A stretch of DNA of 9,622 bases, taken from contig QQUD01000166.1 of the NCBI GenBank assembly GCA_008501785.1, positions 1-9,622 on the forward strand, given 5' to 3'. This document shows, in pieces, positions 672-9,622 of the stretch. A program made the translations under genes and the position numbers. This DNA comes from Chloroflexota bacterium. Lineage in GTDB: Bacteria; Chloroflexota; Anaerolineae; Promineifilales; Promineifilaceae. The number at the start of each line of letters is the position of its first letter. The stretch's first letter is position 1. The notes below the pieces were generated by a model that saw only the letters and a program-made list of their open reading frames with translations, searched no databases and was not told the DNA's origin.

Positions 672-1430
672 ATGCGATTGAAAGATAGGGTAGCGCTCGT
701 CACCGGTGGCGCAGCAGGGATTGGCAAAGCAACGGCCGTTCGCTTCACCGAAGAAGGCGCAAAAGTTGTCATTTGTGACGTAAACGAAGAAATGGGCCAA
801 GCAGCCGCTGCTGAAATCGGAGCCGATTTCTACAAAGTGAATGTGGCAGACCGACAGGATGTGCAAAATTGGGTGGATGCGGTGGTGGAGAAATACGGCC
901 GTATTGATATCCTCGTCAACAATGCAGGTGTATTGCGTGATGGCACCCTCGTCAAAGTCAAAAATGGGCAATTAGTTAAACAAATGTCTGAAGAAAACTT
1001 CGACCTCGTTATCAGCGTCAACCTCAAAGGCGTGTTCAACTGCACCCAGGCAGTTGCCCCCGTCATGATCAATCAAGGCGGCGGTGTTGTGCTCAATGCT
1101 ACCTCTATCGTCGGTTTAGATGGCAACTTTGGCCAAACCAACTACGTCGCGACTAAATCTGGCGTGATTGGCATGACCAAAGTGTGGGCACGAGAATTAG
1201 GACGCAGCGGCGTTCGCGTGAACGCAGTGGCTCCCGGCTTTACGCTCACCGAAATGGTCAGACAAATGCCTGAAAAAATCCTCGATGGCATGAAAGCACG
1301 CACACCACTGCGCCGCCTAGGTGAGCCACGCGACATTGCCAATGCTTATCTTTTCCTGGCTTCAGATGAAGCCAGCTTTATTAGTGGAGAGACATTACGA
1401 GTTGACGGCGGCATTGTTGTTGGAACGTGA
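672..1430 (+). CDS. Short-chain dehydrogenase/reductase, FabG-like (252 aa)
   Basis: Classical SDR of normal length that oxidises or reduces an alcohol/ketone pair with NAD(P)(H) in the cytosol. The cofactor loop TGGAAGIG is at residues 11-18. An acidic residue, D36, at the end of the second strand (VVICD) suggests NAD(H) over NADPH. NNAG is at 83-86. The catalytic tetrad is present: N117 (SVNLKG), S145 (NATSIVG), Y158 and K162 (YVATK). PG is at 188-189 and a typical VDGG end at 244-247. The best general match is the 3-oxoacyl-ACP/CoA reductase (FabG) group, but this family also covers many secondary-alcohol dehydrogenases, so the substrate is open. Residues about 88-107 (RDGTLVKVKNGQ onward) look slightly longer than in compact FabG. 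It sits between a condensing enzyme and a hydrolase, fitting a 3-hydroxy/3-oxoacyl step. It contains two ACGGCCGT palindromes (732, 895). Confidence 0.92.
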   Translation: MRLKDRVALVTGGAAGIGKATAVRFTEEGAKVVICDVNEEMGQAAAAEIGADFYKVNVADRQDVQNWVDAVVEKYGRIDILVNNAGVLRDGTLVKVKNGQLVKQMSEENFDLVISVNLKGVFNCTQAVAPVMINQGGGVVLNATSIVGLDGNFGQTNYVATKSGVIGMTKVWARELGRSGVRVNAVAPGFTLTEMVRQMPEKILDGMKARTPLRRLGEPRDIANAYLFLASDEASFISGETLRVDGGIVVGT

Positions 1431-1437
1431 TTTAGTT

Positions 1438-1500
1438 ACTGGTCGCTGGTAGCTGGTTGCTGGTGGGATTATTACCAGCAACAAGCTACCAGTGACCACC
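1438..1500. repeat. Period-7 tandem-repeat hairpin
   Basis: The left arm 1438-1464 carries CTGGT four times at exactly 7-nt steps (1439, 1446, 1453, 1460). The right arm 1474-1500 carries the complement at 7-nt steps (1474, 1481, 1488, 1495), with some units decayed. The two 27-nt arms pair at about 23 of 27 positions around a 9-nt loop. No T-run follows, so a simple rho-independent terminator is unlikely. The Shine-Dalgarno of the next gene begins 4 nt after the structure. Confidence 0.8.
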
Positions 1501-1504
1501 CCCA

Positions 1505-1511
1505 AAAGGAG
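1505..1511 (+). promoter_or_regulatory. Shine-Dalgarno of hydrolase A
   Basis: AAAGGAG lies 6 nt before the ATG at 1518 and directly after the period-7 hairpin, which could modulate access to it. Confidence 0.85.
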
Positions 1512-1517
1512 AATTTC

Positions 1518-2558
1518 ATGTCCTCGATTTCAACCTTACCTGGTATTGAATCCCAAATGGTCCAAACGGATCGGCTCAATATTCATATTTTGGCGTGTGG
1601 CCCTGCTGATGGCACACCAGTTTTGTTTGTGCATGGCAACGGCTCTTCAGCCACATTTTGGGAAGAGACGATGTTAGCCTTGCCAGATGGCTATCGGGCC
1701 GTCGCGGTTGATCTGCGCGGTTACGGCGATACCGAACCACTGCCAATTGACGCAACATTGGGCTTGTCGGATATGGTGGATGACATCCATTCGTTAACAC
1801 AAACAATGGGGATGGCATCCTATCACATCGTCGGACACAGTATGGGCGGTGGCATTGTGATGAAATATGCGATTGCTCATGCGGCTGAACTGCTTTCGAT
1901 CACGCTGGTCGATACGATGTCACCTTATGGCTATGGCGGCAGCAAAGATGCTGCTGGCACCATGACTTACAACGACGGCGCACCCTCAGGCATCAATCCC
2001 GACTTTGTGCAGGCGCTGGCTAATGGAGACAAAGGAACCGAAAATCCAATGGCTCCGCGCAACGTGTTTCGGCAGTTTTATGTCAAACCACCTTTCATCG
2101 CAGGGCGGGAAGATGCGCTGATTGATTCGATGATTTCGACGAAGATTGGAGATGATTGGTATCCGGGAACGGCCGTTCCCTCCCCCAATTGGCCCGGTGC
2201 CGCTCCTGGCGACAAAGGTGTTTTACCTGCATTCAATCGCAAATATTTCAACGCCAGCGCCCTGGTAGACATCGATCCCAAACCGCCTGTCTTGTGGATT
2301 CGCGGCGACAGCGATTTGATTGTCAGCGACTACGCCATGTTTGACTTGGCTGCTCTAGGCGCGATGGGTGCTGTTCCTGGTTGGCCCGGTGCTGAAGAAT
2401 GCCCTCCACAACCCATGCTGGCTCAGACTCGCGCAATTTTGGATCAATATCAAGCGAATGGCGGCTCTTACAAGGAAGAAGTGATTGCCGATGCCGGTCA
2501 TTCACCTTTCATCGAACAACCAGAAGCGTTCAACACTACGTTTCACGCAATTTTGTAA
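1518..2558 (+). CDS. Alpha/beta hydrolase A (346 aa)
   Basis: Alpha/beta-hydrolase fold enzyme, probably an esterase, lactonase or thioesterase; no signal peptide is seen, so cytosolic. The oxyanion-hole strand reads PVLFVHGNGSS (residues 34-44). The nucleophile elbow is GHSMG (106-110), with S108 as nucleophile. The acid is probably D266 (WIRGDSD), and H328 (DAGHSPF) completes the triad. At 346 aa it is longer than the roughly 270-300 aa typical of simple members. The extra length is a large cap between about residues 133 and 255, including SPYGYGGSKD, VKPPF and SPNWPG. These segments recur in hydrolase B at 4293, so the two are paralogues with an unusual shared cap. It lies 50 bp before the first acyl-CoA synthetase, suggesting that it supplies an acid to it. 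The substrate is unknown. Confidence 0.88.
   Translation: MSSISTLPGIESQMVQTDRLNIHILACGPADGTPVLFVHGNGSSATFWEETMLALPDGYRAVAVDLRGYGDTEPLPIDATLGLSDMVDDIHSLTQTMGMASYHIVGHSMGGGIVMKYAIAHAAELLSITLVDTMSPYGYGGSKDAAGTMTYNDGAPSGINPDFVQALANGDKGTENPMAPRNVFRQFYVKPPFIAGREDALIDSMISTKIGDDWYPGTAVPSPNWPGAAPGDKGVLPAFNRKYFNASALVDIDPKPPVLWIRGDSDLIVSDYAMFDLAALGAMGAVPGWPGAEECPPQPMLAQTRAILDQYQANGGSYKEEVIADAGHSPFIEQPEAFNTTFHAIL
2165..2180. repeat. 16-bp perfect palindrome around ACGGCCGT
   Basis: GGGAACGGCCGTTCCC is a perfect palindrome inside hydrolase A, read as G-T-A-V-P in frame. It is the longest perfect extension of the nine ACGGCCGT sites. About 11 G and 3 C lie in the 30 bases before the core, and about 6 G and 16 C in the 30 after it. 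Confidence 0.9.
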
Positions 2559-2584
2559 AGCGATTTTGAAAATCGCGCTACAAA
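2552..2584. repeat. CGATTTT hairpin in the hydrolase A-ligase spacer
   Basis: GCGATTTT and AAAATCGC (2560-2576, one-base loop) form a perfect stem. Outside it TTTGTA (2552-2557) pairs with TACAAA (2579-2584). The stop codon of hydrolase A lies within the outer arm. No U-tract follows, so terminator function is weakly supported. The stem sequence resembles the CGATTT/AAATCG hairpins at 4146-4275. Confidence 0.65.
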
Positions 2585-2608
2585 CCAACCCGAAAAAAGG
2601 CGGATGGT

Positions 2609-4138
2609 ATGCACGCAGCGGATTTATTGAGCAAACGAGCACTATTGACACCAGCGCGTGAGGCATTGCTATTTACAGACACGGGCCAACAGTTCACATA
2701 TGCGCAATTAAACGAGCGTTCCAACCGGGCCGCTAATTTTTTGCGGGAAAAATGCGGCATTCAAGAAGGAGATCGGGTTTCTATTTTAGCGCACAATTGT
2801 GTGCCATATCTTGACTTGTTTTATGGCCTTGCCAAGATTGGTGCAATTTTAGCGCCGCTGAATTGGCGCTTAGTGGCATCTGAATTGACTTATATTGTCA
2901 ATGATTGTGACCCGAAAGTGCTGCTCTGTGACCCTGATTTTGTGGAGATGCTGGCAGAGATGCGCCCCCACATCAAAGTCGATCAGTTTGTCACGCTAGG
3001 TGGTGCGGAAATTGAAGGGGCGCTTTCATATGAAGATGAGTTAGAAGATGCGGATGGTGGGGAACCGAAACGGCCGTATTCCCTCACCGGCGACACCCCA
3101 CACTGCATCCTCTACACCTCAGGCACCACCGGACGACCCAAAGGAGCCATCATCCCACAGCGGCAAGTGTTATGGAACATCCTCAACACCACCGCCAGTT
3201 GGGGATTAACCGAGCATGATGTATCGCCCGTATTTACACCCTTATTCCACGCAGGTGGACTTTTTGCCTTTTTAACGCCGCTGTTTTATCTGGGTGGACG
3301 CATTGTTCTTTCCAAAAGCTTTGATCCTGAGAAAACACTAGACATCATTTTGGAAGAAAAATGCACGGTCATTCTAGGTGTACCCACCATTTTTCAGATG
3401 TGGCTCGATGCTCCCAATTTTCACGAACTTGATTTTAGCCATGTTCATTTCTTCATCAGTGGTGGCGCACCTTGTCCCCCTTCCCTCATGGAAAAATGGC
3501 GTAACGCCAAAAACATCGTCTTCCGCCAGGGGTATGGCCTGACGGAAGTAGGTCCCAACTGCTTCAGCATGACCGACGAAGATTCTGTGCCCAAAACTGG
3601 CAGCGTGGGCCGCCCCATCTTCCACAGCGATATGCGATTGGTCGATGAAAATGGCAACGACGTGCCGGTGGGTAATGAGGGGGAACTACTCATCAAAGGA
3701 CCACATGTCAGCACCGGATATTGGCAAAATCCCAAAGCCACCGCCGACGCGCTGGTCGACGATTGGTTCTACACGGGCGATACGGCGCGAATGGATGAAG
3801 ATGGATTTTACACCATTGTGGGTCGGGCAAAGGATATGATCATCAGCGGTGGCGAGAATGTGTATGCGGCTGAGGTGGAAGCGGTGTTTTTGGAACATAC
3901 GGCCGTTTCCGGCGCAGCACTCATCGGTAAACCCAACAAAAAATGGGGTGAGGTTGGTTTGATGATCGTCATCACCGAAAAAGGCCAGACCGTCACCGCC
4001 GACGAACTGATTGCCCACTGCCACCAACGCCTCGCTCGCTACAAAGCACCCAAAGAAATCATTTTCGCCGACGACCTACCCTACTCGCCTTATGGCAAAG
4101 TGATGAAAAACAAGCTGCGCGAAAAATATTTGGAATAG
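2609..4138 (+). CDS. AMP-forming acyl-CoA synthetase, complete (509 aa)
   Basis: Member of the ANL (adenylate-forming) superfamily: activates a carboxylic acid with ATP to an acyl-AMP and then to acyl-CoA. The phosphate-binding motif YTSGTTGRPKG is at 169-179, the aromatic YGLTE at 309-313, YTGD at 388-391, and the hinge region GRAKDMIISGGENVY at 405-419. The C-terminal catalytic lysine is K497 in SPYGKVMKN. The length is normal for medium/long-chain or aryl acid-CoA ligases and all key residues are present, so it should be active. The start at 2609 follows a weak AAGG at 2597-2600, 8 nt upstream. The N-terminal part closely resembles the second ligase at 8366 (shared KIGAIL, LNWRL, YI-NDC), so the two are paralogues. 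It contains two ACGGCCGT sites (3070, 3899). Chain length or aromatic preference cannot be told from the sequence. Confidence 0.93.
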   Translation: MHAADLLSKRALLTPAREALLFTDTGQQFTYAQLNERSNRAANFLREKCGIQEGDRVSILAHNCVPYLDLFYGLAKIGAILAPLNWRLVASELTYIVNDCDPKVLLCDPDFVEMLAEMRPHIKVDQFVTLGGAEIEGALSYEDELEDADGGEPKRPYSLTGDTPHCILYTSGTTGRPKGAIIPQRQVLWNILNTTASWGLTEHDVSPVFTPLFHAGGLFAFLTPLFYLGGRIVLSKSFDPEKTLDIILEEKCTVILGVPTIFQMWLDAPNFHELDFSHVHFFISGGAPCPPSLMEKWRNAKNIVFRQGYGLTEVGPNCFSMTDEDSVPKTGSVGRPIFHSDMRLVDENGNDVPVGNEGELLIKGPHVSTGYWQNPKATADALVDDWFYTGDTARMDEDGFYTIVGRAKDMIISGGENVYAAEVEAVFLEHTAVSGAALIGKPNKKWGEVGLMIVITEKGQTVTADELIAHCHQRLARYKAPKEIIFADDLPYSPYGKVMKNKLREKYLE

Positions 4139-4145
4139 TTAGTAG

Positions 4146-4275
4146 CCCGATTTTCCAAATCGGGAGTCGAACAAGATGTTCGATTTACAGAAGAGACCTC
4201 ATGAACGTGGCACACCACCACCCATGAAAACCGTAGTGCGATTTGGTAAATCGCATATCGAATTAGCAATTCGAT
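4146..4275. repeat. Duplicated double-hairpin unit upstream of hydrolase B
   Basis: Two related units lie 91 bp apart. Unit 1 has stem CCCGATTT/AAATCGGG (4146-4164), then TCGAAC/GTTCGA (4167-4183). Unit 2 has TGCGATTT/AAATCGCA (4237-4255), then ATCGAATT/AATTCGAT (4257-4275). Each is followed by CGATTTACAGA, a purine-rich stretch and ATGAA (4181 and 4272). Only the second unit leads into the real gene start at 4293. The first resembles a decayed or duplicated leader. Unit 1 begins 8 nt after the ligase stop. Confidence 0.75.
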
Positions 4276-4280
4276 TTACA

Positions 4281-4288
4281 GAGGAAAA
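4281..4288 (+). promoter_or_regulatory. Shine-Dalgarno of hydrolase B
   Basis: GAGGAAAA begins 12 nt before the ATG at 4293, with GAGG 8 nt away. It supports this start over an in-frame ATG at 4176, whose 39-residue extension would be encoded by the hairpin repeats. Confidence 0.75.
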
Positions 4289-4292
4289 AGTT

Positions 4293-5348
4293 ATGAAGAT
4301 TCCAACAATAGATGGGATTACCGCGAAAACAATTGTTACCAACCGCATTTCCACTCGCGTGCTGTTTAGCGGGGCTGATGATGGCGTGCCGGTGCTATTT
4401 TTGCATGGCAACATCTCATCAGCGACATGGTGGGAAGAAACGATGGTGGCTTTGCCTGACGGATATCGCGGCATTGCGCCAGACCAGCGCGGCTTTGGCG
4501 AGGCTGATTTCGATAAAAAAGTAGACGCCACACGTGGCGCAGGCGATTGGGCTGATGATGCAACTGCGCTGCTTGACCATTTGGGTATTGAAAAAGCGCA
4601 CATTGTGGGCAACTCGCTTGGTGGCGTTGTCGTTTGGCGGCTGATGATGGATGTGCCCGCACGATTCCTAACGGCTACGTTGGTGGATCCCGGTTCCCCG
4701 TTTGGCTTTGGCGGCACGAAGGATGTGGACGGCACACCTTGCTACAAGGATTTTGCCGGTTCAGGGGGTGGTTTATCCAATCCCGAACTGATTAAACGAA
4801 TGCAGGCAGGCGACATGAGCACAGAAAGTCCAGTTTCGCCACGTTCGGCGCTGCGAACCCTGTTGGTCAAACCGCCGCTAATCCCAGAACGAGAGGATGC
4901 GCTGGTGATGTCGATGCTGGCAACTCACATCAGCGAACAAGATGTACCTGGTGACTCGGTACAATCACCAAACTGGCCGCACATGGCACCGGGCAAATGG
5001 GGAGCAACCAACGCGCTTTCGCCCAAATACACCGGGGATGTCAACAAGCTGTTTGCTGTTGAACCAAAAACCAGCGTGCTTTGGATTCGTGGTAGTCATG
5101 ATTTGGCTGTTTCTGACAACGCGGCTTCAGACCCCGCCACAGTTGGGGCAATGGGCTTGCTGCCCAGTTATCCTGGCCCAAAAGTTTACCCACCACAGCC
5201 CATGCTCAAACAAACCCGCGCAGTTTTAGAGAAATATGCAGCAGCCGGTGGCACATACCAAGAAGTGATTATTGAAGATGCAGGACACATTCCTTACATC
5301 GAAAAACCAATTGAATTTAACAGACATTTTCATGGACATATTAGTTAG
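4293..5348 (+). CDS. Alpha/beta hydrolase B, paralogue of hydrolase A (351 aa)
   Basis: Alpha/beta-hydrolase fold, likely a cytosolic esterase, lactonase or thioesterase. The oxyanion strand is PVLFLHGNISS (33-43). The nucleophile elbow is GNSLG (106-110) with S108; the acid is probably D270 (WIRGSHD); the His is H332 (EDAGHIPY). It lines up with hydrolase A along its whole length: same nucleophile number, WEETM.ALPDGYR after the oxyanion loop, SPFGFGGTKD, LVKPPLI, SPNWP, PPQPML.QTRA and the AGH...IE.P end. The elbow differs (GNSLG against GHSMG), as does part of the cap, so the pair arose by duplication and may have split substrates. It follows the ligase by 154 bp and precedes the thiolase by 192 bp. 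The start is set by the GAGG at 4281. No ACGGCCGT site lies in this gene, unlike in hydrolase A. Confidence 0.88.
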   Translation: MKIPTIDGITAKTIVTNRISTRVLFSGADDGVPVLFLHGNISSATWWEETMVALPDGYRGIAPDQRGFGEADFDKKVDATRGAGDWADDATALLDHLGIEKAHIVGNSLGGVVVWRLMMDVPARFLTATLVDPGSPFGFGGTKDVDGTPCYKDFAGSGGGLSNPELIKRMQAGDMSTESPVSPRSALRTLLVKPPLIPEREDALVMSMLATHISEQDVPGDSVQSPNWPHMAPGKWGATNALSPKYTGDVNKLFAVEPKTSVLWIRGSHDLAVSDNAASDPATVGAMGLLPSYPGPKVYPPQPMLKQTRAVLEKYAAAGGTYQEVIIEDAGHIPYIEKPIEFNRHFHGHIS

Positions 5349-5396
5349 AAACCGTGTTTTTCTTTGTTAGTTAAAAATTTAGCCAAGCTTAAAACT

Positions 5397-5485
5397 GTCA
5401 TTCCGAACGGAGTCTTTGGAGTGAGGAATCCCGACTACCTTTAAATGATAGACCATGGGGGTTCCTCAGAGGACTTTGGAATGAC
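5397..5485. repeat. GTCATTCC-ended inverted-repeat element, copy 2
   Basis: The left arm 5397-5430 matches copy 1 (411-444) at 33 of 34 bases. The right end 5459-5485 is the same arm with four or so changes (TTGGAATGAC instead of TCGGAATGAC). The centre is unrelated to copy 1 and about 10 bp shorter. It fills much of the 192-bp spacer between hydrolase B and the thiolase. Bases 5349-5396 show nothing recognisable. Confidence 0.8.
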
Positions 5486-5528
5486 ATGGCTTATTTGTCT
5501 TAATTTTCAACAAGAAAACACGATTTTT

Positions 5529-5532
5529 GGAG
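5529..5532 (+). promoter_or_regulatory. Shine-Dalgarno of the thiolase
   Basis: GGAG lies 8 nt before the ATG at 5541. This start is preferred over the in-frame ATG at 5445, which lies inside repeat copy 2. Confidence 0.7.
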
Positions 5533-5540
5533 AAGAACAC

Positions 5541-6803
5541 ATGAGTAAACGAAAACTAGGTCGAGGTGTTGCCGTTGTGGGCGCAGGGATGAGCCAGTTT
5601 GGTGCGTTCCCTGAAAAAACGACTCGCGACCTTTTTGTAGAGGCGTTCCAGGATATGCGAGCTTCAGTGGATAAGGGGTTGGTGCCCAACGACATTGAGG
5701 CTTTGTACATTGGCAATTACAGCAGTGATTTGTTTGAAGGGCAGGGTCACACGGCTCCGATTATGGCGGATTGGGTGGGATTGACACCACGCCCAGCAAC
5801 GCGAATTGAGGATGCGTGTGCCAGCTCTGGTGTCGCTTTGCGGCAGGGTTTGTTGGCGATTGCTTCTGGTGCGTACGACATGGTTTTGGTAGGTGGCATC
5901 GAGAAGATGAATAACCTGCCGATTGCCGAGGTGACAGAAGCGTTAGCAACGGCTGGCGACATTTTGTACGAAATTCCGGCTGGATTTACCTTCCCCGGCT
6001 TTTATGCAACGATGGCGACGGCATATATGCACAAGTACGGAGCTGTGCCAGAAGCGTTGATGCAGGTGGCGCGGAAAAATCACGACAATGGAGCGCTGAA
6101 TCCAAAAGCACAATTTAACAGTACGATTGCTGGCGTGATGGCTGCCAAGCAGCGCAGCGCCGAGCGAAAAGGGCGACCCATTCCCACCTGGGATAACGAG
6201 ATGGCATTTTTGCAGGATGACCGAGCGAATCCGATGATTGCGTGGCCGTTGCGCTTGTTTGATTGTTCGCCGGTGACGGATGGGGCAACGGCCGTTCTCC
6301 TCGTCAGTGAAGAAATTGCCAAACAGTATACCGACGACCCCGTGTACATCATCGGGTCTGGGCAAGCCAGCGATGGTGCGTTACACGACCGTCCCGACTT
6401 GACCAGCATCAGCGCAGCAAAACGCGCCGGTCAGATGGCTTACGAGATGGCAGACATTGCTGCCGATGACATCAAAATCGCCGAAGTCCACGACTGTTTC
6501 ACCATCGCGGAAATCATTGCCACTGAAGATTTGGGCTTTTTTGAGCCAGGTCAGGGGCATGAAGCAGCGCAAGAAGGGTTGACAGCACGGCATGGGACCA
6601 AGCCGATTAACACATCTGGCGGCTTGAAGTCGAAAGGGCATCCAGTGGGTGCATCGGGCGCAGGGCAGGCGATTGAAGTTTTCAAACAAATGCGCGGCCT
6701 TGCAGGTAAGCGGCAAGTGGATCGCGATATTGATCTGGCTTTGACGCATAACGTGGGCGGAACGGGACAAACGGCCGTTGTTCACATTTACGAGAGAAGA
6801 TAG
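5541..6803 (+). CDS. SCP2-type thiolase / acetyl-CoA acetyltransferase (420 aa)
   Basis: Thiolase-fold enzyme that cleaves 3-oxoacyl-CoA with CoA or condenses two acyl-CoAs. The nucleophile is C93 in EDACASSG. HDCF is at 317-320, and the GHP histidine is H367 in KGHPVGASG. The usual C-terminal Cys-x-Gly motif is replaced by HNVGGTG (403-409). This set is typical of SCP2/archaeal-type thiolases, in which the HDCF cysteine (C319) takes over the second catalytic role. All these residues are present, so a working thiolase is more likely than an Ltp2-type retro-aldolase, which uses tyrosines. Such thiolases commonly pair with a DUF35 protein, and here one follows 75 bp downstream. The length is normal. 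The TAG stop is also the first unit of the period-8 repeat. It carries two ACGGCCGT sites (6288, 6771); codon choice becomes visibly C-rich just after the first. Confidence 0.9.
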   Translation: MSKRKLGRGVAVVGAGMSQFGAFPEKTTRDLFVEAFQDMRASVDKGLVPNDIEALYIGNYSSDLFEGQGHTAPIMADWVGLTPRPATRIEDACASSGVALRQGLLAIASGAYDMVLVGGIEKMNNLPIAEVTEALATAGDILYEIPAGFTFPGFYATMATAYMHKYGAVPEALMQVARKNHDNGALNPKAQFNSTIAGVMAAKQRSAERKGRPIPTWDNEMAFLQDDRANPMIAWPLRLFDCSPVTDGATAVLLVSEEIAKQYTDDPVYIIGSGQASDGALHDRPDLTSISAAKRAGQMAYEMADIAADDIKIAEVHDCFTIAEIIATEDLGFFEPGQGHEAAQEGLTARHGTKPINTSGGLKSKGHPVGASGAGQAIEVFKQMRGLAGKRQVDRDIDLALTHNVGGTGQTAVVHIYERR

Positions 6804-6874
6804 TCGAATAGTCAGATAGTCGGGTAGTCAAGTTGTCAAGACTACCGGACTAAAGACTACCGGACTAAGGACTA
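6801..6874. repeat. Period-8 TAGTC/GACTA inverted tandem repeat
   Basis: TAGTC occurs at 6801, 6809, 6817 and 6825, exactly 8 nt apart, with a TTGTC variant at 6833. Its complement GACTA follows at 6840, 6848, 6855, 6863 and 6870. The right half is also a 15-bp direct duplication (GACTACCGGACTAA, 6840-6854 and 6855-6869). Five forward and five reverse units can fold into one long hairpin. The first unit supplies the thiolase stop codon. The end of the array supplies AAGGA (6867-6871), the likely ribosome binding site of the next gene. Confidence 0.85.
6867..6871 (+). promoter_or_regulatory. Shine-Dalgarno of the DUF35 gene, inside the repeat
   Basis: AAGGA lies 7 nt before the ATG at 6879. 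It belongs to the last units of the period-8 array, so folding of the array could hide it. Confidence 0.6.
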
Positions 6875-6878
6875 AAAA

Positions 6879-7292
6879 ATGATTAACCGAGCATTTAGTG
6901 AACATTCTTTCCAGACATTTTTGAGTGAAGGTAAGTTGATGGGGGCACGGAGTAAGGCGACAGGCAAGATTTTTGTGCCGCCGCGTCCGATTGATCCGGA
7001 GACGCACAGTGATGAGATGGAGTGGGTTGAGTTGTCGGGTAAGGGGGAGTTGGCGGCGTTTACGGCCGTTTACATCGGTCCCAATGCCATGATTGAAGCG
7101 GGTTATGACCGCAAAAATCCGTATCTAACGGGTGTGGTGAAATTGGATGAAGGCCCGATGATCAGCGCCCAAATTTTGGGGCTTGAATCAGCCAAACCGG
7201 AAATTAGCCATATTGGCACGCCGCTTACCGTCACATTTATTGAGCGCGGCGAAGAGGAAGAGAAGCGTACATTTTTAGCTTTTGAGGTTTAG
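6879..7292 (+). CDS. DUF35 OB-fold protein lacking zinc-ribbon cysteines (137 aa)
   Basis: Matches the DUF35 family (rubredoxin-like zinc ribbon plus OB fold) that accompanies SCP2-type thiolases and can shape or bridge their acyl-CoA site. Typical features: an N-terminal helix FQTFLSEGKLMG (11-22), the PPR turn (34-36), WVELSGKGELAAFTAVYIGP (49-68) leading into the OB fold, GVVKLDEGP (85-93), IGTPLTVTF (112-120) and a FLAFEV end. Normal members carry Cys-x2-Cys before PPR and a second Cys-x2-Cys after it. Here the first pair reads S25 and A28 (RSKATG), the second region is PIDPETHS, and the whole protein has no cysteine, so zinc cannot be bound in the usual way. The 75-bp distance to the thiolase supports a complex with it. 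It contains one ACGGCCGT site (7062). Family assignment rests on motif recall; a fold search would settle it. Confidence 0.82.
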   Translation: MINRAFSEHSFQTFLSEGKLMGARSKATGKIFVPPRPIDPETHSDEMEWVELSGKGELAAFTAVYIGPNAMIEAGYDRKNPYLTGVVKLDEGPMISAQILGLESAKPEISHIGTPLTVTFIERGEEEEKRTFLAFEV

Positions 7293-7316
7293 GAACGGTG
7301 GTTTTATAAACCTATA

Positions 7317-7413
7317 AATTGTCATACCCCACCTTCGTGAGGGCAGGCTCTGCGAAGGCAGGTATCCATCTTTTTTGAGACGTGGATTCCCGCCTTCGCG
7401 GGAATGACAATTT
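7317..7413. repeat. GTCATTCCC/CCTTCGCGGG dispersed repeat
   Basis: The ends AAATTGTCATACCC (7317-7330) and GGGAATGACAATTT (7400-7413) are inverted repeats with one mismatch. On the right ATTCCCGC/GCGGGAAT (7386-7405) forms a perfect 8-bp stem with a CTTC loop. The left half has the related GCGAAGGCAGGTATCC. It shares the GTCATTCC terminus with the elements at 411 and 5397, but the interior is different, so it is a second family. It occupies about half of the 205-bp spacer before the third hydrolase. Confidence 0.75.
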
Positions 7414-7445
7414 AAAGTTCACGGGATTATTTAACCTCCATTTCT

Positions 7446-7475
7446 TTGCAAGTCAGAAATCGGATTTATTATAAA
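7446..7475 (+). promoter_or_regulatory. Possible sigma-70-type promoter before the third hydrolase
   Basis: TTGCAA (7446-7451) and TATAAA (7470-7475) are 18 bp apart, matching the -35 and -10 consensus at 4 and 5 of 6 positions. Transcription would begin near 7482, giving a short leader to the ATG at 7498. The -10 falls in the loop side of the hairpin at 7455-7486. Prediction by eye only. Confidence 0.3.
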
Positions 7476-7486
7476 ATCTGATTTCT
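7455..7486. repeat. AGAAATCGGATTT hairpin next to the start codon
   Basis: AGAAATCGGATTT (7455-7467) pairs with AAATCTGATTTCT (7474-7486) across a 6-nt loop. All 13 positions pair if one G-U is allowed. It ends 11 nt before the ATG of the third hydrolase, where no Shine-Dalgarno is visible. It could be another dispersed AT-rich hairpin or a control element for that gene. Confidence 0.6.
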
Positions 7487-7497
7487 CAAACACAACT

Positions 7498-8319
7498 ATG
7501 CCTAAAGTTACTGTAAACGACATCCAAATTTATTACGAATGGCACGGGCCGCCAGATGGCGAAGTGGTGGTGTTGTCTAATGGCGTGTTGATGAGTACGG
7601 CGAGTTGGGCGATGCAAACGGCGGCTTTGGCTAAGCATTATCGGTTGCTGCTGTACGACTGCCGGGGCATGTGGCAGTCAGAGCATCCGCCAGGGCCGTA
7701 CTCGATGGAAATGCACGCTGATGATTTGGCTGGGTTGATGGATGCGCTTGAGATTGACGCGGCTCACATGGGCGGCACATCCTACGGCGCTGAGATTAGC
7801 ATGATCTTTGCGCTCAAATATCCGCAGCGCACCAAAAGTCTGATGGTGACGTCGGCAGTGAGCCATGTAGAGCCATTGCTTAATGGTTTTATTGAAACCT
7901 GGAACAGCGCAGCAAAAGCACACGACTCAGAAAGGCTGTTTCAGGTCGTTTATCCGCTCACCTTTGCCAATGACTGGATTGCGGCTAACCAGGAAACACT
8001 CAATCAGGCACGCGAGCGCTACAAGTTGCTCGATTTTGATGCGTTTTCGGCGCTGTTGATGAGCTTTTCGCAGTTAAACATCACATCTGATTTACACAAA
8101 ATCACAGCACCAACGCTGGTCGTTGCTGGGGATGAAGACATTCTCAAGCCGCGTCATTATTCCGAAATCATTGCGAAAGAAATACCAAATGCCGAGTTTG
8201 CTGTGATTCCAGGTGCGGGCCACGCTGCTTTGTGGGAGAAAGCTGGCGTTTTTAACTCGCTGCTGCTCGGATTTTTGGCTACACATGCCCAACCTCCGGG
8301 AGGTATCGGGCAGGATTGA
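7498..8319 (+). CDS. Alpha/beta hydrolase, 3-oxoadipate enol-lactonase-like (273 aa)
   Basis: Compact alpha/beta hydrolase of the length usual for enol-lactonase (PcaD-like) and related C-C or ester hydrolases. The oxyanion region is VVVLSNGVLMS (23-33), with NG in place of HG. DCRGMWQSE (54-62) is the usual D.RG.G.S position. The nucleophile elbow is GTSYG (93-97), S95. The acid is D214 (VVAGDEDILKP) and the His is H242 (PGAGHAALWE). Only the fold is shared with hydrolases A and B; it lacks their large cap. The last residues (AQPPGGIGQD) are encoded by a palindromic repeat at 8291-8305 and look like an appended tail. The gene is 46 bp before the second ligase, repeating the hydrolase-then-ligase order seen at 1518/2609. 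No clear ribosome binding site is visible. The substrate is unknown; PcaD-like is a structural comparison, not a proof. Confidence 0.87.
   Translation: MPKVTVNDIQIYYEWHGPPDGEVVVLSNGVLMSTASWAMQTAALAKHYRLLLYDCRGMWQSEHPPGPYSMEMHADDLAGLMDALEIDAAHMGGTSYGAEISMIFALKYPQRTKSLMVTSAVSHVEPLLNGFIETWNSAAKAHDSERLFQVVYPLTFANDWIAANQETLNQARERYKLLDFDAFSALLMSFSQLNITSDLHKITAPTLVVAGDEDILKPRHYSEIIAKEIPNAEFAVIPGAGHAALWEKAGVFNSLLLGFLATHAQPPGGIGQD
8291..8305. repeat. AACCTCC-G-GGAGGT palindrome, copy 1, inside the hydrolase 3' end
   Basis: AACCTCCGGGAGGTA contains a perfect 13-bp odd palindrome (8292-8304). It codes for the Pro-Pro-Gly-Gly of the hydrolase tail, before the stop at 8317. A sister copy lies 41 bp downstream. 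Confidence 0.7.
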
Positions 8320-8331
8320 GGCTTTTGAATG

Positions 8332-8346
8332 AACCTCCCGGAGGTT
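8332..8346. repeat. AACCTCC-C-GGAGGTT palindrome, copy 2
   Basis: Perfect 7+1+7 palindrome in the 46-bp spacer before the second ligase. It is the same unit as 8291-8305 with the centre base changed. GGAGG in its right arm looks like a Shine-Dalgarno but is 22 nt from the ATG, too far; the AAGGA at 8353 is better placed. Confidence 0.7.
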
Positions 8347-8352
8347 TTCACG

Positions 8353-8357
8353 AAGGA
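8353..8357 (+). promoter_or_regulatory. Shine-Dalgarno of the second ligase
   Basis: AAGGA lies 8 nt before the ATG at 8366, fixing the start just after the AACCTCC palindrome. Confidence 0.7.
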
Positions 8358-8365
8358 TTGAATTG

Positions 8366-9622
8366 ATGTACCACTTTGATTGGATTAAACGACATGCGGA
8401 ACGGACACCAGAAAAATTGGCGCTGGTGGACGCGCACAGTGGGCGGCAGTTTAGTTACGCTCAATTTAATGCGCGTGCCAACCGATTAGCCAGTTTTTTG
8501 CGTGATGAATTGGGCGTTGAGCAAGGTGACCGGGTTTCCATTTTGGCACAAAACAGCTCTGATTATTTCGAGGTGCTGTTTGCTTGCGGCAAGATTGGGG
8601 CCATTTTGAATACGCTGAATTGGCGGCTGGCTGCGCCGGAATTAGCGTACATTATCAATGATTGCACACCGCGTGTGATGATTTATGGTGGGGAGTTCGA
8701 AACGGCCGTTTCCACCCTCCACCCCCAAATCAACTGCGAATCGACCATTGTCATGGCGGACAGCGCACCAGAAGGCGAATGGACCTACGAGAACGCATTA
8801 GCCGCTGGTTCACCTGATGATTTTGAAGGACCACGCCTGAAATATGAAGACACCTGGGCCATTCTTTACACCTCTGGGACAACGGGACGACCAAAAGGAG
8901 CGCAGGTTACTTACGGTAATTTCTTTTATAACGCCGTAGGGATGGGACGTGCAATTGATTTGACCTCAGATGATGTCAATCTGAATGTGCTGCCAACTTT
9001 CCACGCGGGTGGATTGGGGCTGTACGCGGGGCCAATTTTCCATGCGGGCGGGACGCTGATTGTGATGAGAGCTTTTGATCCAGGAAAAATGTTGGATTTG
9101 ATTGCACAATGGCACGTCAATAAAATGCTGCTGGTTCCAGCTATTTATCTGGCGCTGCTGCAATATCCCGATTTTGATAAGGTGGATTTGTCGGGCGTGG
9201 TGCATTGGGGCAGCGGTGGCTCATCTTTGCCGACATCGCTGGTCGAGCAGTATGCCAAAAAAGGCATCATCATCCAGCAGGGCTTTGGTATGACCGAAAC
9301 AGGGCCGACGGTATTCCTGATCGACAAGAAAAATGCGGTGCGCAAGGCTGGCTCGGTGGGCAAGCCGGTGCTGCATACGGATGTATGCATCATGGACCGC
9401 GACGGGAATATGCTAGGACCGAACCAGGTGGGTGAACTGTGCATTCGTGGCGGCAATGTGACGACAGGATATTGGAATCGCCCGGAAGCAAGCGCCGAAG
9501 CAATTAAAAATGATTGGTTACATTCAGGCGATGCGGCCACGTTTGATGAAGAAGGTTTCTACTACATTGTGGATCGCTGGAAGGATATGTTTATTTCGGG
9601 TGGTGAGAATGTGTATCCAGCG
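8366..9622 (+). CDS. AMP-forming acyl-CoA synthetase, 3' end outside window (419 aa seen)
   Basis: The frame opens with MYHFDWIKRHAERTPEKLAL and stays open to the last base, so the gene continues beyond the window. Phosphate-binding motif YTSGTTGRPKG at 168-178, FGMTE at 307-311, HSGD at 386-389, and the hinge region DRWKDMFISGGENVYPA at 403-419. The C-terminal domain with the catalytic lysine is not in view. By comparison with the 509-aa ligase at 2609, about 90 residues are missing. The two share NWRL, YI-NDC, FHAGGL, SGG and the same motif spacing, so they are paralogues. Differences such as FGMTE against YGLTE and HSGD against YTGD may reflect different acid specificity. It contains one ACGGCCGT site (8702), extended to GAAACGGCCGTTTC at 8699-8712, after which a run of C-rich codons begins. 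It follows its hydrolase neighbour by 46 bp, so the two may be co-transcribed. Confidence 0.92.
   Translation, partial: MYHFDWIKRHAERTPEKLALVDAHSGRQFSYAQFNARANRLASFLRDELGVEQGDRVSILAQNSSDYFEVLFACGKIGAILNTLNWRLAAPELAYIINDCTPRVMIYGGEFETAVSTLHPQINCESTIVMADSAPEGEWTYENALAAGSPDDFEGPRLKYEDTWAILYTSGTTGRPKGAQVTYGNFFYNAVGMGRAIDLTSDDVNLNVLPTFHAGGLGLYAGPIFHAGGTLIVMRAFDPGKMLDLIAQWHVNKMLLVPAIYLALLQYPDFDKVDLSGVVHWGSGGSSLPTSLVEQYAKKGIIIQQGFGMTETGPTVFLIDKKNAVRKAGSVGKPVLHTDVCIMDRDGNMLGPNQVGELCIRGGNVTTGYWNRPEASAEAIKNDWLHSGDAATFDEEGFYYIVDRWKDMFISGGENVYPA

Follow-up and report, generated by a model that had tools for sequence, protein, structure and literature searches.

Strand composition flips around a highly iterated palindrome of a Chloroflexota group

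Introduction

Highly iterated palindromes (HIPs) of cyanobacteria, including HIP1 (GCGATCGC) and alternate HIPs, have been described by Elhai (2015; PMC4390886). Here we report on a palindromic octamer from another phylum, ACGGCCGT, and on the base composition of its flanks. The analysis started from a stretch of 9,622 nt of a Chloroflexota bacterium (assembly GCA_008501785.1, contig QQUD01000166.1), which is called the window throughout and harbors nine copies of the octamer. An initial annotation of the window had claimed that strand composition flips at these sites, from G-rich before to C-rich after the core, and had suggested that the palindrome may sit at a boundary between opposite mutational or repair biases.

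The palindrome shares several features with HIP1 and the alternate cyanobacterial HIPs as presented in PMC4390886. It is a GC-rich palindromic octamer, it occurs about once or more per kb in genes and between genes, it is swapped for another palindrome in some relatives, and its one-base deviants gather at the outer positions (here in genomes G004 and G001). It differs from HIP1 in phylum and sequence, and the flip and sawtooth described below were not seen beyond 10 bp on HIP1-bearing plasmid and viral DNA. The words "skew" and "chloroflex" have no match in the main text of PMC4390886. The initial annotation had known of no described system with such a signature. This does not hold for the palindrome, which is of the kind described in cyanobacteria (PMC4390886); the skew flip itself we did not find in print. 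Among the matches listed by our literature search, no paper dealt with ACGGCCGT in Chloroflexota or with skew flips at HIPs; most subscription journals are outside the coverage of this search.

Other short signals offer partial parallels. Chi sites and FtsK-orienting polar sequences (KOPS) are frequent, short, G-rich signals tied to the polarity of DNA processing. They are asymmetric and oriented with replication, whereas the ACGGCCGT core is self-reverse-complementary and its flanks are mirror-symmetric. Uptake signal sequences (USS) and DNA uptake sequences (DUS) share with ACGGCCGT a density of about one copy per kb and an effect on the encoded peptides. They are not palindromic, and we know of no flank polarity of comparable kind around them, while ACGGCCGT has both properties. 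Replication strand asymmetry leads to G over C and T over A on one strand, reversed across a boundary, with a period set by origin and terminus. At ACGGCCGT the period is set by palindromes that are hundreds of bases apart.

Results

Strand composition flips at the palindromes of the window

ACGGCCGT occurs at nine sites of the window (Table 1), where 0.15 copies are expected, and none of 200 shuffles reached nine. In the 30 bases before the nine cores we counted 111 G and 33 C, exactly as in the initial annotation, and in the 30 bases after them 50 G and 90 C (49 G had been given). As it had also said, all nine sites are G-rich before the core, and C equals or exceeds G after the core at seven of them, the sites at 732 and 6771 being the exceptions. 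The range given for the sites starts at position 865 and omits the first site at 732.

The summed flip of the window was 118, and the maximum in 5,000 sets of nine random intragenic positions was 57. No random set matched the window for flanks of 30 to 250 bases (also when calculated for 60, 100, 150, and 250 bases), and at 500 bases the window exceeded all sets but one. The third codon positions showed the flip very clearly: the G/C fractions before the core were 0.44/0.06 at 1–12 bp and 0.46/0.07 at 13–30 bp, and after the core 0.00/0.61 and 0.06/0.42, respectively. The observation in the window is real, and it extends far beyond the window.

The palindrome is highly iterated in a group of Chloroflexota

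The whole genomes G001, G002, G003, and G004 contain 2,984 (3.0 Mb), 9,707, 6,777, and 12,611 (6.0 Mb) copies of ACGGCCGT, which corresponds to about 1.0 to 2.1 copies per kb. The reversed-pattern control had 55–392 copies in the same genomes. Among 59 genomes around G004 (G004 included), 22 were palindrome-rich, defined as at least 2,500 copies, and the other 37 had at most 1,727. In 331 kb of G004 we found 716 copies, while the median palindromic octamer present had 3, and in a slightly larger sample 786 copies stood against 7.9 expected from a third-order model. The 716 copies were distributed over called genes (606), intergenic regions (105), and gene edges (5). This location, together with the missing pairing of the flanks (see Discussion), does not agree with a REP (repetitive extragenic palindromic) or other hairpin repeat element, yet 67 of 103 intergenic G004 copies are part of dispersed repeats with G-rich/C-rich inner flanks (L041–L060).

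In some relatives another palindrome is iterated. These are TGCCGGCA in G020 (3,665 copies, 38-fold over base composition in the sample), TCGGCCGA in G016 and G039 (64- and 67-fold), and GCGGCCGC in G023 (63-fold). One-base deviants of ACGGCCGT were concentrated at position 1 in G004 (170 vs. 95 expected, with positions 2–4 at or below expectation) and likewise in G001 (25 vs. 12 expected). Such a concentration at the outer position was not seen for the other palindrome of G020 (45 vs. 53 expected). We conclude that ACGGCCGT is a HIP of a Chloroflexota group in the sense of Elhai 2015: the octamer is over-represented, it occurs about once per kb in and between genes, alternate palindromes exist, and deviants lie at the outer position. 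Two further genomes, G013 (L121–L122) and G015 (L123–L124), showed 16- and 10-fold enrichment of CGGCCG with the outer base not fixed, which is possibly a stage of HIP gain or loss.

Next to the core, G is preferred at −3/−4 and A at −1. For the 336 sites of G004 in which the core begins on codon position 1, mirroring of the −1/+1 bases was 0.26 vs. 0.36 expected (z −4.1), an effect that was not present in the other classes. In G001, the flanking −1/+1 bases are A or T in 93%. One genome may have the asymmetric motif AACGGCCGT, and the other may have AACGGCCGTT. Alternatively, codon choice may be at play.

The flip has a short and a long component

GC skew was folded over both strands around the cores of the four sampled genomes G001–G004. 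A flat aligned profile, which according to the initial annotation would have spoken against its claim, was seen in none of the four. In G004, folded skew was 0.01 at 400–600 bp and climbed to 0.34 at 5–10 bp from the core, and the profiles of G001, G002, and G003 were similar. Within genes the flip was mainly found at third codon positions. At fourfold sites of G004 the fractions at 13–30 bp were C 0.26 and G 0.51 before the core and C 0.52 and G 0.25 after the core, compared to about C 0.40 and G 0.39 at 301–600 bp, while A and T barely shifted near the core. Two-fold codons of G004 behaved correspondingly, with C/(C+T) of 0.37 before and 0.62 after the core, and G/(A+G) of 0.52 and 0.34. In G001, C before the core was decreased to 0.22 vs. 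0.30 and was replaced by A/T more than by G (0.32 vs. 0.31), and G after the core dropped to 0.20 vs. 0.27. The flanks before and after the core are near mirror images on the coding strand and the flip is nearly symmetric with respect to this strand; transcription is therefore not a likely cause. The 36 non-repetitive intergenic copies of G004 also showed the flip at 12–20 bp (C 0.22, G 0.33), and further out it was faint (C/G 0.22/0.25 at 20–30 bp and 0.23/0.27 at 30–60 bp).

Half-flanks of G004 that had no other core within 700 bp showed a skew of 0.33 at 0–10 bp, 0.10 at 90–120 bp, 0.05 at 300–400 bp, and zero at 500–700 bp. Between neighboring cores the GC skew followed a sawtooth: it was C-rich past the left core, close to zero near the middle of the interval, and G-rich before the right core. 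Each of the seven interval classes, which together span 150 bp to 5 kb, showed this pattern. In the longest class (2–5 kb) the skew ran from −0.15 to +0.14 in G004 (11 intervals) and from −0.15 to +0.13 in the pooled sparser genomes (36 intervals).

Two-exponential fits gave a fast length of 22 bp for G004, 22 bp for G001, 23 bp for the pooled set, and 21 bp for G020, and a slow length of 1,223 bp for G004, 1,133 bp for the pooled set, and 1,004 bp for G020. Two exponentials were the best of the models tried in G004 and G001 and tied in G020 with a model that combines a fast exponential with relative position. When the slow length was set to 1.1 kb, the slow GC amplitude was 0.20 (G004), 0.15 (G001), 0.13 (pooled), 0.12 (G020), and 0.12 (G016 and G039 together), and the slow TA amplitude was 0.10, 0.07, 0.07, 0.03, and 0.03 in the same order. 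The slow component in G004, G001, and the pooled set thus combines G over C with T over A. This combination is expected of a strand that is more often single-stranded, as in leading-strand skew.

The flip follows the palindrome among relatives

In genomes with an alternate palindrome, the flip was found at that palindrome. At 10–20 bp it was 0.150 at TGCCGGCA in G020 (135 sites) vs. 0.029 ± 0.017 at other GCCGGC (79 sites), 0.140 at TCGGCCGA in G039 (50 sites), and 0.102 at GCGGCCGC in G023 (41 sites). At TCGGCCGA in G016 (51 sites) it was 0.110 at 5–10 bp, 0.028 ± 0.020 at 10–20 bp, and 0.069 at 20–30 bp. No flip was seen at the 124 CGGCCG sites from nine loci whose genomes have no iterated octamer. 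Other palindromes in G004 showed no consistent flip, the bins off the core being less reliable for sites near sequence starts; TTGGCCAA (13 sites) reached 0.15 at 0–10 bp only.

The amino acid context was rejected as the cause. In G004, in the absence of a core within 60 bp, the flip was −0.013 at [ST]A[VIL] (134 cases), −0.007 at [YDNH]GR (18), and −0.004 at random codons (13,998), so that an equal flip at random positions, the other result that would have spoken against the initial claim, was likewise not seen. Cores in the Thr-Ala-Val frame had a flip of 0.119 (323 cases). Thr-Ala-Val without a core within 60 bp gave 0.094, a value from three cases and thus too few to use.

Homologs lacking the motif had been proposed as a check of the claim. 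We compared reciprocal best hits among the sampled stretches, which resulted in 1,061 site-ortholog comparisons. When the palindrome was retained in place (iterated genomes, 471 pairs), the flip was 0.141 in both members. When the ortholog from an iterated genome had no own palindrome within 100 bp (407 pairs, 178 focal sites), the flip was 0.126 at the focal site vs. 0.022 in the ortholog, and for the 164 of these pairs without a palindrome within 300 bp it was 0.107 vs. 0.031. With the own palindrome 4–100 bp away (112 pairs) the values were 0.141 vs. 0.043, and with orthologs from the low-copy genomes G005–G008 (71 pairs) 0.153 vs. −0.010. The pairs are not independent, but bootstrapping by gene gave separate intervals for the pairs without an own palindrome within 100 bp (orthologs 0.008–0.035, focal sites 0.107–0.146). 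At fourfold codons shared by both orthologs the contrast was likewise reduced, with some residue in the ortholog. The palindrome as a boundary of opposite strand biases holds in several genomes, and the bias tracks the presence of the palindrome among orthologs.

Individual sites of the window vary: the site at 895 is retained in G001 with a flip of 0.00, and the site at 2169 is absent in G004 with 0.15 remaining. A flip that persists after recent loss of the palindrome is the behavior expected of a footprint. Site-absent pairs with >90% identity had 0.083 in the ortholog vs. 0.079 at the focal site, but these are four pairs, too few to interpret.

The core is conserved and affects the encoded proteins

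At 65–80% protein identity, cores were exactly retained in 307 of 620 cases vs. 1,184 of 9,548 permuted octamers, and where the amino acids were identical in 297 of 345 cases vs. 1,124 of 4,147. Between G004 and G011, 4 of 508 core bases differed vs. 8–10% in the flanks (31 kb aligned; cores picked in G004). In 29 genes, 2 of 158 fourfold sites inside cores differed, and A/G differences were somewhat more common within 15 bp.

The G004 sample contains 385 Thr-Ala-Val (ACG GCC GTN) vs. 51 expected, of which 379 are encoded by the core and 6 by other codons, and 90 Asn-Gly-Arg vs. 16 expected. The core encodes 164 of 173, 89 of 91, and 88 of 96 Thr-Ala-Val in G001, G002, and G003, and across the four samples (L041–L100 and others) the tripeptide occurs at 5–8 times the expected frequency. 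In G020, Thr-Ala-Val is not in excess (14 vs. 20 expected), while Met-Pro-Ala, which can be encoded by the palindrome of this genome, is (26 vs. 7). The palindrome seems to spread at some protein cost, like a driven sequence. With core-encoded Thr-Ala-Val, and a total of over seven times the expectation in the G004 sample, a short DNA motif shapes proteomes.

Viral contigs carry the palindrome with little or no flip

In a scan of viral contigs, 80 loci out of 120 stretches were analyzed, and the density reached 3.7 ACGGCCGT cores per kb. L384, L395, L398, L435, and L455 had 2.8–3.7 copies per kb, above the sampled hosts, with little or no flip past 10 bp. The dense viral set (at least 8 cores and >0.8 per kb; twelve loci on eleven contigs, 267 sites, two groups) had a flip of 0.07 and 0.13 at 0–5 bp, of 0.013 and 0.020 (each ± 0.014) at 10–20 bp, and of at most 0.022 ± 0.015 beyond 20 bp. 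Single loci kept a residual flip over 0–30 bp, mostly near the core (L384 0.051 ± 0.017, L387 0.081 ± 0.024). Ten viral proteins were scanned: the five of L398 include matches to anti-repressor, ParA, FtsK/SpoIIIE-like, and endolysin families, L435 showed matches to phosphoadenosine phosphosulfate reductase and a D5-like regulator, and three of the ten had no match. The palindrome probably does not depend on the flip in order to be favored. If such viruses live in these bacteria, the palindrome is favored there with little or no flip, and the flip would therefore be a slow by-product of chromosomal life and not a component of the signal.

HIP1 on pSYSM (65 sites) and on a Trichormus plasmid (26 sites) showed no flip beyond 5 bp. 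In the 23 HIP1-rich loci of a set of 80 viral loci (270 sites) it was 0.060 and 0.036 at 0–10 bp and absent beyond. The slow amplitude for HIP1 was −0.034 ± 0.014 on part of the plasmid and viral DNA. In 100 kb of a Gloeothece PCC 7822 plasmid we did not find a strongly iterated octamer.

Candidate enzymes

For a C5 methyltransferase no match was found in 10 of the 22 palindrome-rich genomes, and no methyltransferase present in every carrier was found. Among the matches listed, an orphan methyltransferase (≥65% identity; L336:1417-2370, minus strand; L377–L380) was present in 12 of 22 palindrome-rich and 0 of 37 palindrome-poor genomes. It is predicted to be an adenine-specific enzyme of the YhdJ/CcrM type; the best NCBIfam matches are below the cut-offs, and the nearest solved chains are adenine methyltransferase-like. 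Ten proteins encoded next to it in four genomes were scanned, and no nuclease was among them. Seven had Pfam families (thioredoxin/DSBA twice, META, GT87, peptidyl-tRNA hydrolase, rRNA adenine dimethylase, isocitrate/isopropylmalate dehydrogenase) and three had none. Plasmids commonly carry relatives with <60% identity (best 52%, at least 5,000 records), and the family as such is therefore not special to these bacteria. Ten carriers, including G041, lack the orphan enzyme among the matches listed; another methyltransferase of G041 shares 98% identity with its counterpart in G030, a genome that does carry the orphan enzyme. Kinship and gaps in metagenome-assembled genomes (MAGs) confound the count, and we regard the orphan enzyme as a candidate lead and not as the answer.

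Genes of the window

The window contains an ordinary run of genes of the acyl-CoA type: a short-chain dehydrogenase, three alpha/beta hydrolases, two AMP-binding enzymes, a thiolase, an OB-fold protein, and the end of a ketoacyl synthase-like gene (coordinates in Table 1). The thiolase is 93% identical to that of the closest named relative, the MAG DOLZORAL124_50_6 "Chloroflexi bacterium" (L001), and the next best matches are from other Chloroflexota MAGs. The window thus most likely belongs to a Chloroflexota member of this group. Dispersed intergenic inverted repeats of the GTCATTCC ... GGAATGAC type, common to several gaps, are located at 400–510, 5386–5486, and 7321–7417. A 53-nt direct repeat with 72% identity (4142–4194 and 4233–4285) lies between two genes.

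Table 1. Genes and ACGGCCGT sites of the window, with the flip at each site and the state of the site in orthologs (flip of the ortholog in brackets).
Feature	Position	Strand	Flip	Remarks
Short-chain dehydrogenase (adh_short_C2)	672..1430	+		two sites
Alpha/beta hydrolase	1518..2558	+		one site
AMP-binding acyl-CoA ligase-like enzyme	2609..4138	+		two sites
Thiolase (Thiolase_N, Thiolase_C_1)	5541..6803	+		two sites
OB-fold protein (ChsH2_C)	6879..7292	+		one site
Second AMP-binding enzyme	8366..9622	+		one site; truncated at window end
ACGGCCGT, short-chain dehydrogenase gene	732..739		0.07	retained in place G001, G004; absent in place G002, G007, G008
ACGGCCGT, short-chain dehydrogenase gene	895..902		0.20	retained G001 (0.00), G002, G004 (0.27, 0.30); absent G007, G008 (0.15, 0.08)
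ACGGCCGT, first alpha/beta hydrolase gene	2169..2176		0.30	absent in the sole ortholog compared (G004, 0.15)
ACGGCCGT, first AMP-binding gene	3070..3077		0.35	retained G001 (0.20); absent G002, G003, G004, G008 (−0.15 to 0.00)
ACGGCCGT, first AMP-binding gene	3899..3906		0.23	retained G003, G004 (0.18, 0.30); absent G001 (CCGGCCGT instead, 0.13), G002, G008
ACGGCCGT, thiolase gene	6288..6295		0.17	retained G001–G004 (0.08–0.17); absent G005, G007, G008 (−0.18 to −0.05)
ACGGCCGT, by 3' end of thiolase gene	6771..6778			G-rich before, no C excess after; gene end too close for ortholog test
ACGGCCGT, OB-fold (ChsH2_C) gene	7062..7069		0.23	retained G001, G003 (0.02, 0.12); absent G006, G008
ACGGCCGT, second AMP-binding gene	8702..8709		0.38	retained G001 (0.15); absent G003, G004, G007 (−0.05 to 0.08)

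Discussion

We consider it most likely, with a probability of roughly 0.4, that the flip is the strand-polarized footprint of DNA processing (a nick or break followed by 5'-to-3' excision) that starts at the palindrome; weak selection and biased gene conversion are live rivals. The palindrome would be the anchor of a recurrent, strand-polarized DNA transaction. The site would be nicked or cut, and 5'-to-3' excision or resection would then remove the 5' end outwards. On either side this would expose, as a single strand of hundreds of bases up to about 1 kb, the strand whose 5'-to-3' direction points to the palindrome. Being damaged, resynthesized, or subject to mismatch correction, the exposed strand could over evolutionary time acquire a leading-strand-like composition (G over C, T over A) that is mirrored across the site. 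The putative enzyme may be linked to mismatch repair or to a methyltransferase, with possible methylation of the site. The initial annotation had suggested a start point of excision, nicking, resection, or strand exchange, and the polarity and the reach of about 1 kb fit excision, resection, or exchange. A simple mutation hotspot does not explain the flip, since total substitution near the sites is not elevated and C/T changes are no more common than expected.

Several results weigh against such processing. Fourfold divergence between G004 and G011 outside cores was 0.18–0.23 and flat with distance (29 genes); the flanks are therefore neither hot nor constrained but only biased in composition. 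This flat substitution rate is what speaks most strongly against a simple mutational explanation. C/T differences were not in excess on the G-rich side, and the fourfold C lost near the core was replaced by G in G004 and by a varying mix of A, T, and G in G001 and G003, rather than chiefly by T. Plain cytosine deamination is thus not supported, neither at fourfold sites nor in the G004–G011 differences. Concerning the long component, G001 does not define the slow length, the relative-position model fits the pooled set slightly better, by 3.7 units of the Akaike information criterion, and the slow TA amplitude differs from zero by less than two standard errors in G020 and in G016 and G039 together. 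The CGGCCG-enriched genome G013 (36 sites) had no flip, and G015 (101 sites) had none that was consistent (0.045 ± 0.016 in one bin). Finally, we did not identify a nickase or nuclease for the site, and MutH was found in none of the 59 genomes, while the E. coli control was recovered, which also sets the system apart from MutH-directed mismatch repair.

A composition that is shifted while the substitution rate is unchanged is what weak selection at synonymous sites would give. A translocase or recombination machine (Chi/RecBCD/AddAB- or FtsK-like, or RecA loading) might read a G-rich, C-poor lead-in to a palindromic stop or loading site, and both the very strong conservation of the core and the enrichment of 5-mers such as GGTGG 5–30 bp before the sites (166 vs. 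31) agree with this. At 13–60 bp, however, no 5-mer was far from the prediction from single bases (z −3.3 to 4.6, 417 5-mers, spread 1.36), palindrome-dense viral contigs show little or no flip, and a smooth 1-kb gradient at thousands of sites needs very many weakly selected positions. We regard selection for polarity as rather unlikely. Slightly less probable again is biased gene conversion, in which the palindrome would be a start of recombination, heteroduplex correction would favor G over C on the 3'-ended strand, and the same bias would spread the palindrome. The unchanged substitution rate suits this explanation as well, as do the tract-like decay of the flip and the Thr-Ala-Val excess, by which the palindrome behaves as driven. 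Against it, direct evidence of recombination is absent and near-cognate octamers are only mildly depleted. Biased correction of such octamers was rejected as weak; the depletion at position 3 in a non-iterated control (14 vs. 27) is nearly as strong as in G004 (20 vs. 48).

The fast component of 20–23 bp has the size of a protein footprint, which, like the preferred G at −3/−4 and A at −1 and the conserved core, could point to an extended protein-binding site with the palindrome as the core of a longer, degenerate site flanked by G-rich 5' and C-rich 3' sequence. Such a site would leave the slow component unexplained, the flip at viral copies is slight or missing more than 10 bp from the core, and fourfold sites at 1–15 bp are unconstrained (divergence 0.204). 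As an explanation of the whole flip it is improbable, but it may account for the fast part alone. Hairpins or cruciforms, or template-switch repair of quasi-palindromes, would make the flanks complementary, and a few sites of the window do resemble long imperfect palindromes (I2, I23); G-rich left and C-rich right flanks yield chance complementarity. Pairing of −k with +k, however, was not clearly more frequent than after flanks had been exchanged at random between sites (z ≤ 2.0 throughout 44 range tests covering 11 site classes and three data sets). With no covariation seen, this origin was rejected and is very improbable.

Returning to the processing footprint, a wider form of it, only slightly less probable, can be proposed. 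A self-spreading, lineage-specific palindrome may divide the genome into repair domains; the DNA would be opened at every copy, and processing of fixed polarity would run outwards over about 1 kb, with the sawtooth across the genome as its trace. The same biased repair might create and maintain the palindrome despite its cost to proteins, as seen for Thr-Ala-Val, and the identity of the palindrome could switch while the process stays.

The skew flip is a real, strong and, to our knowledge, undescribed property of HIPs. As far as we know, the function of these palindromes is still open. If the wider form of the processing explanation is true, the flip would be the first trace of their action at the sequence level. 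It provides a clue that can be read from sequence: the mirror-symmetric bias on the kilobase scale allows ideas about nicking, resection, or repair at HIPs to be tested.

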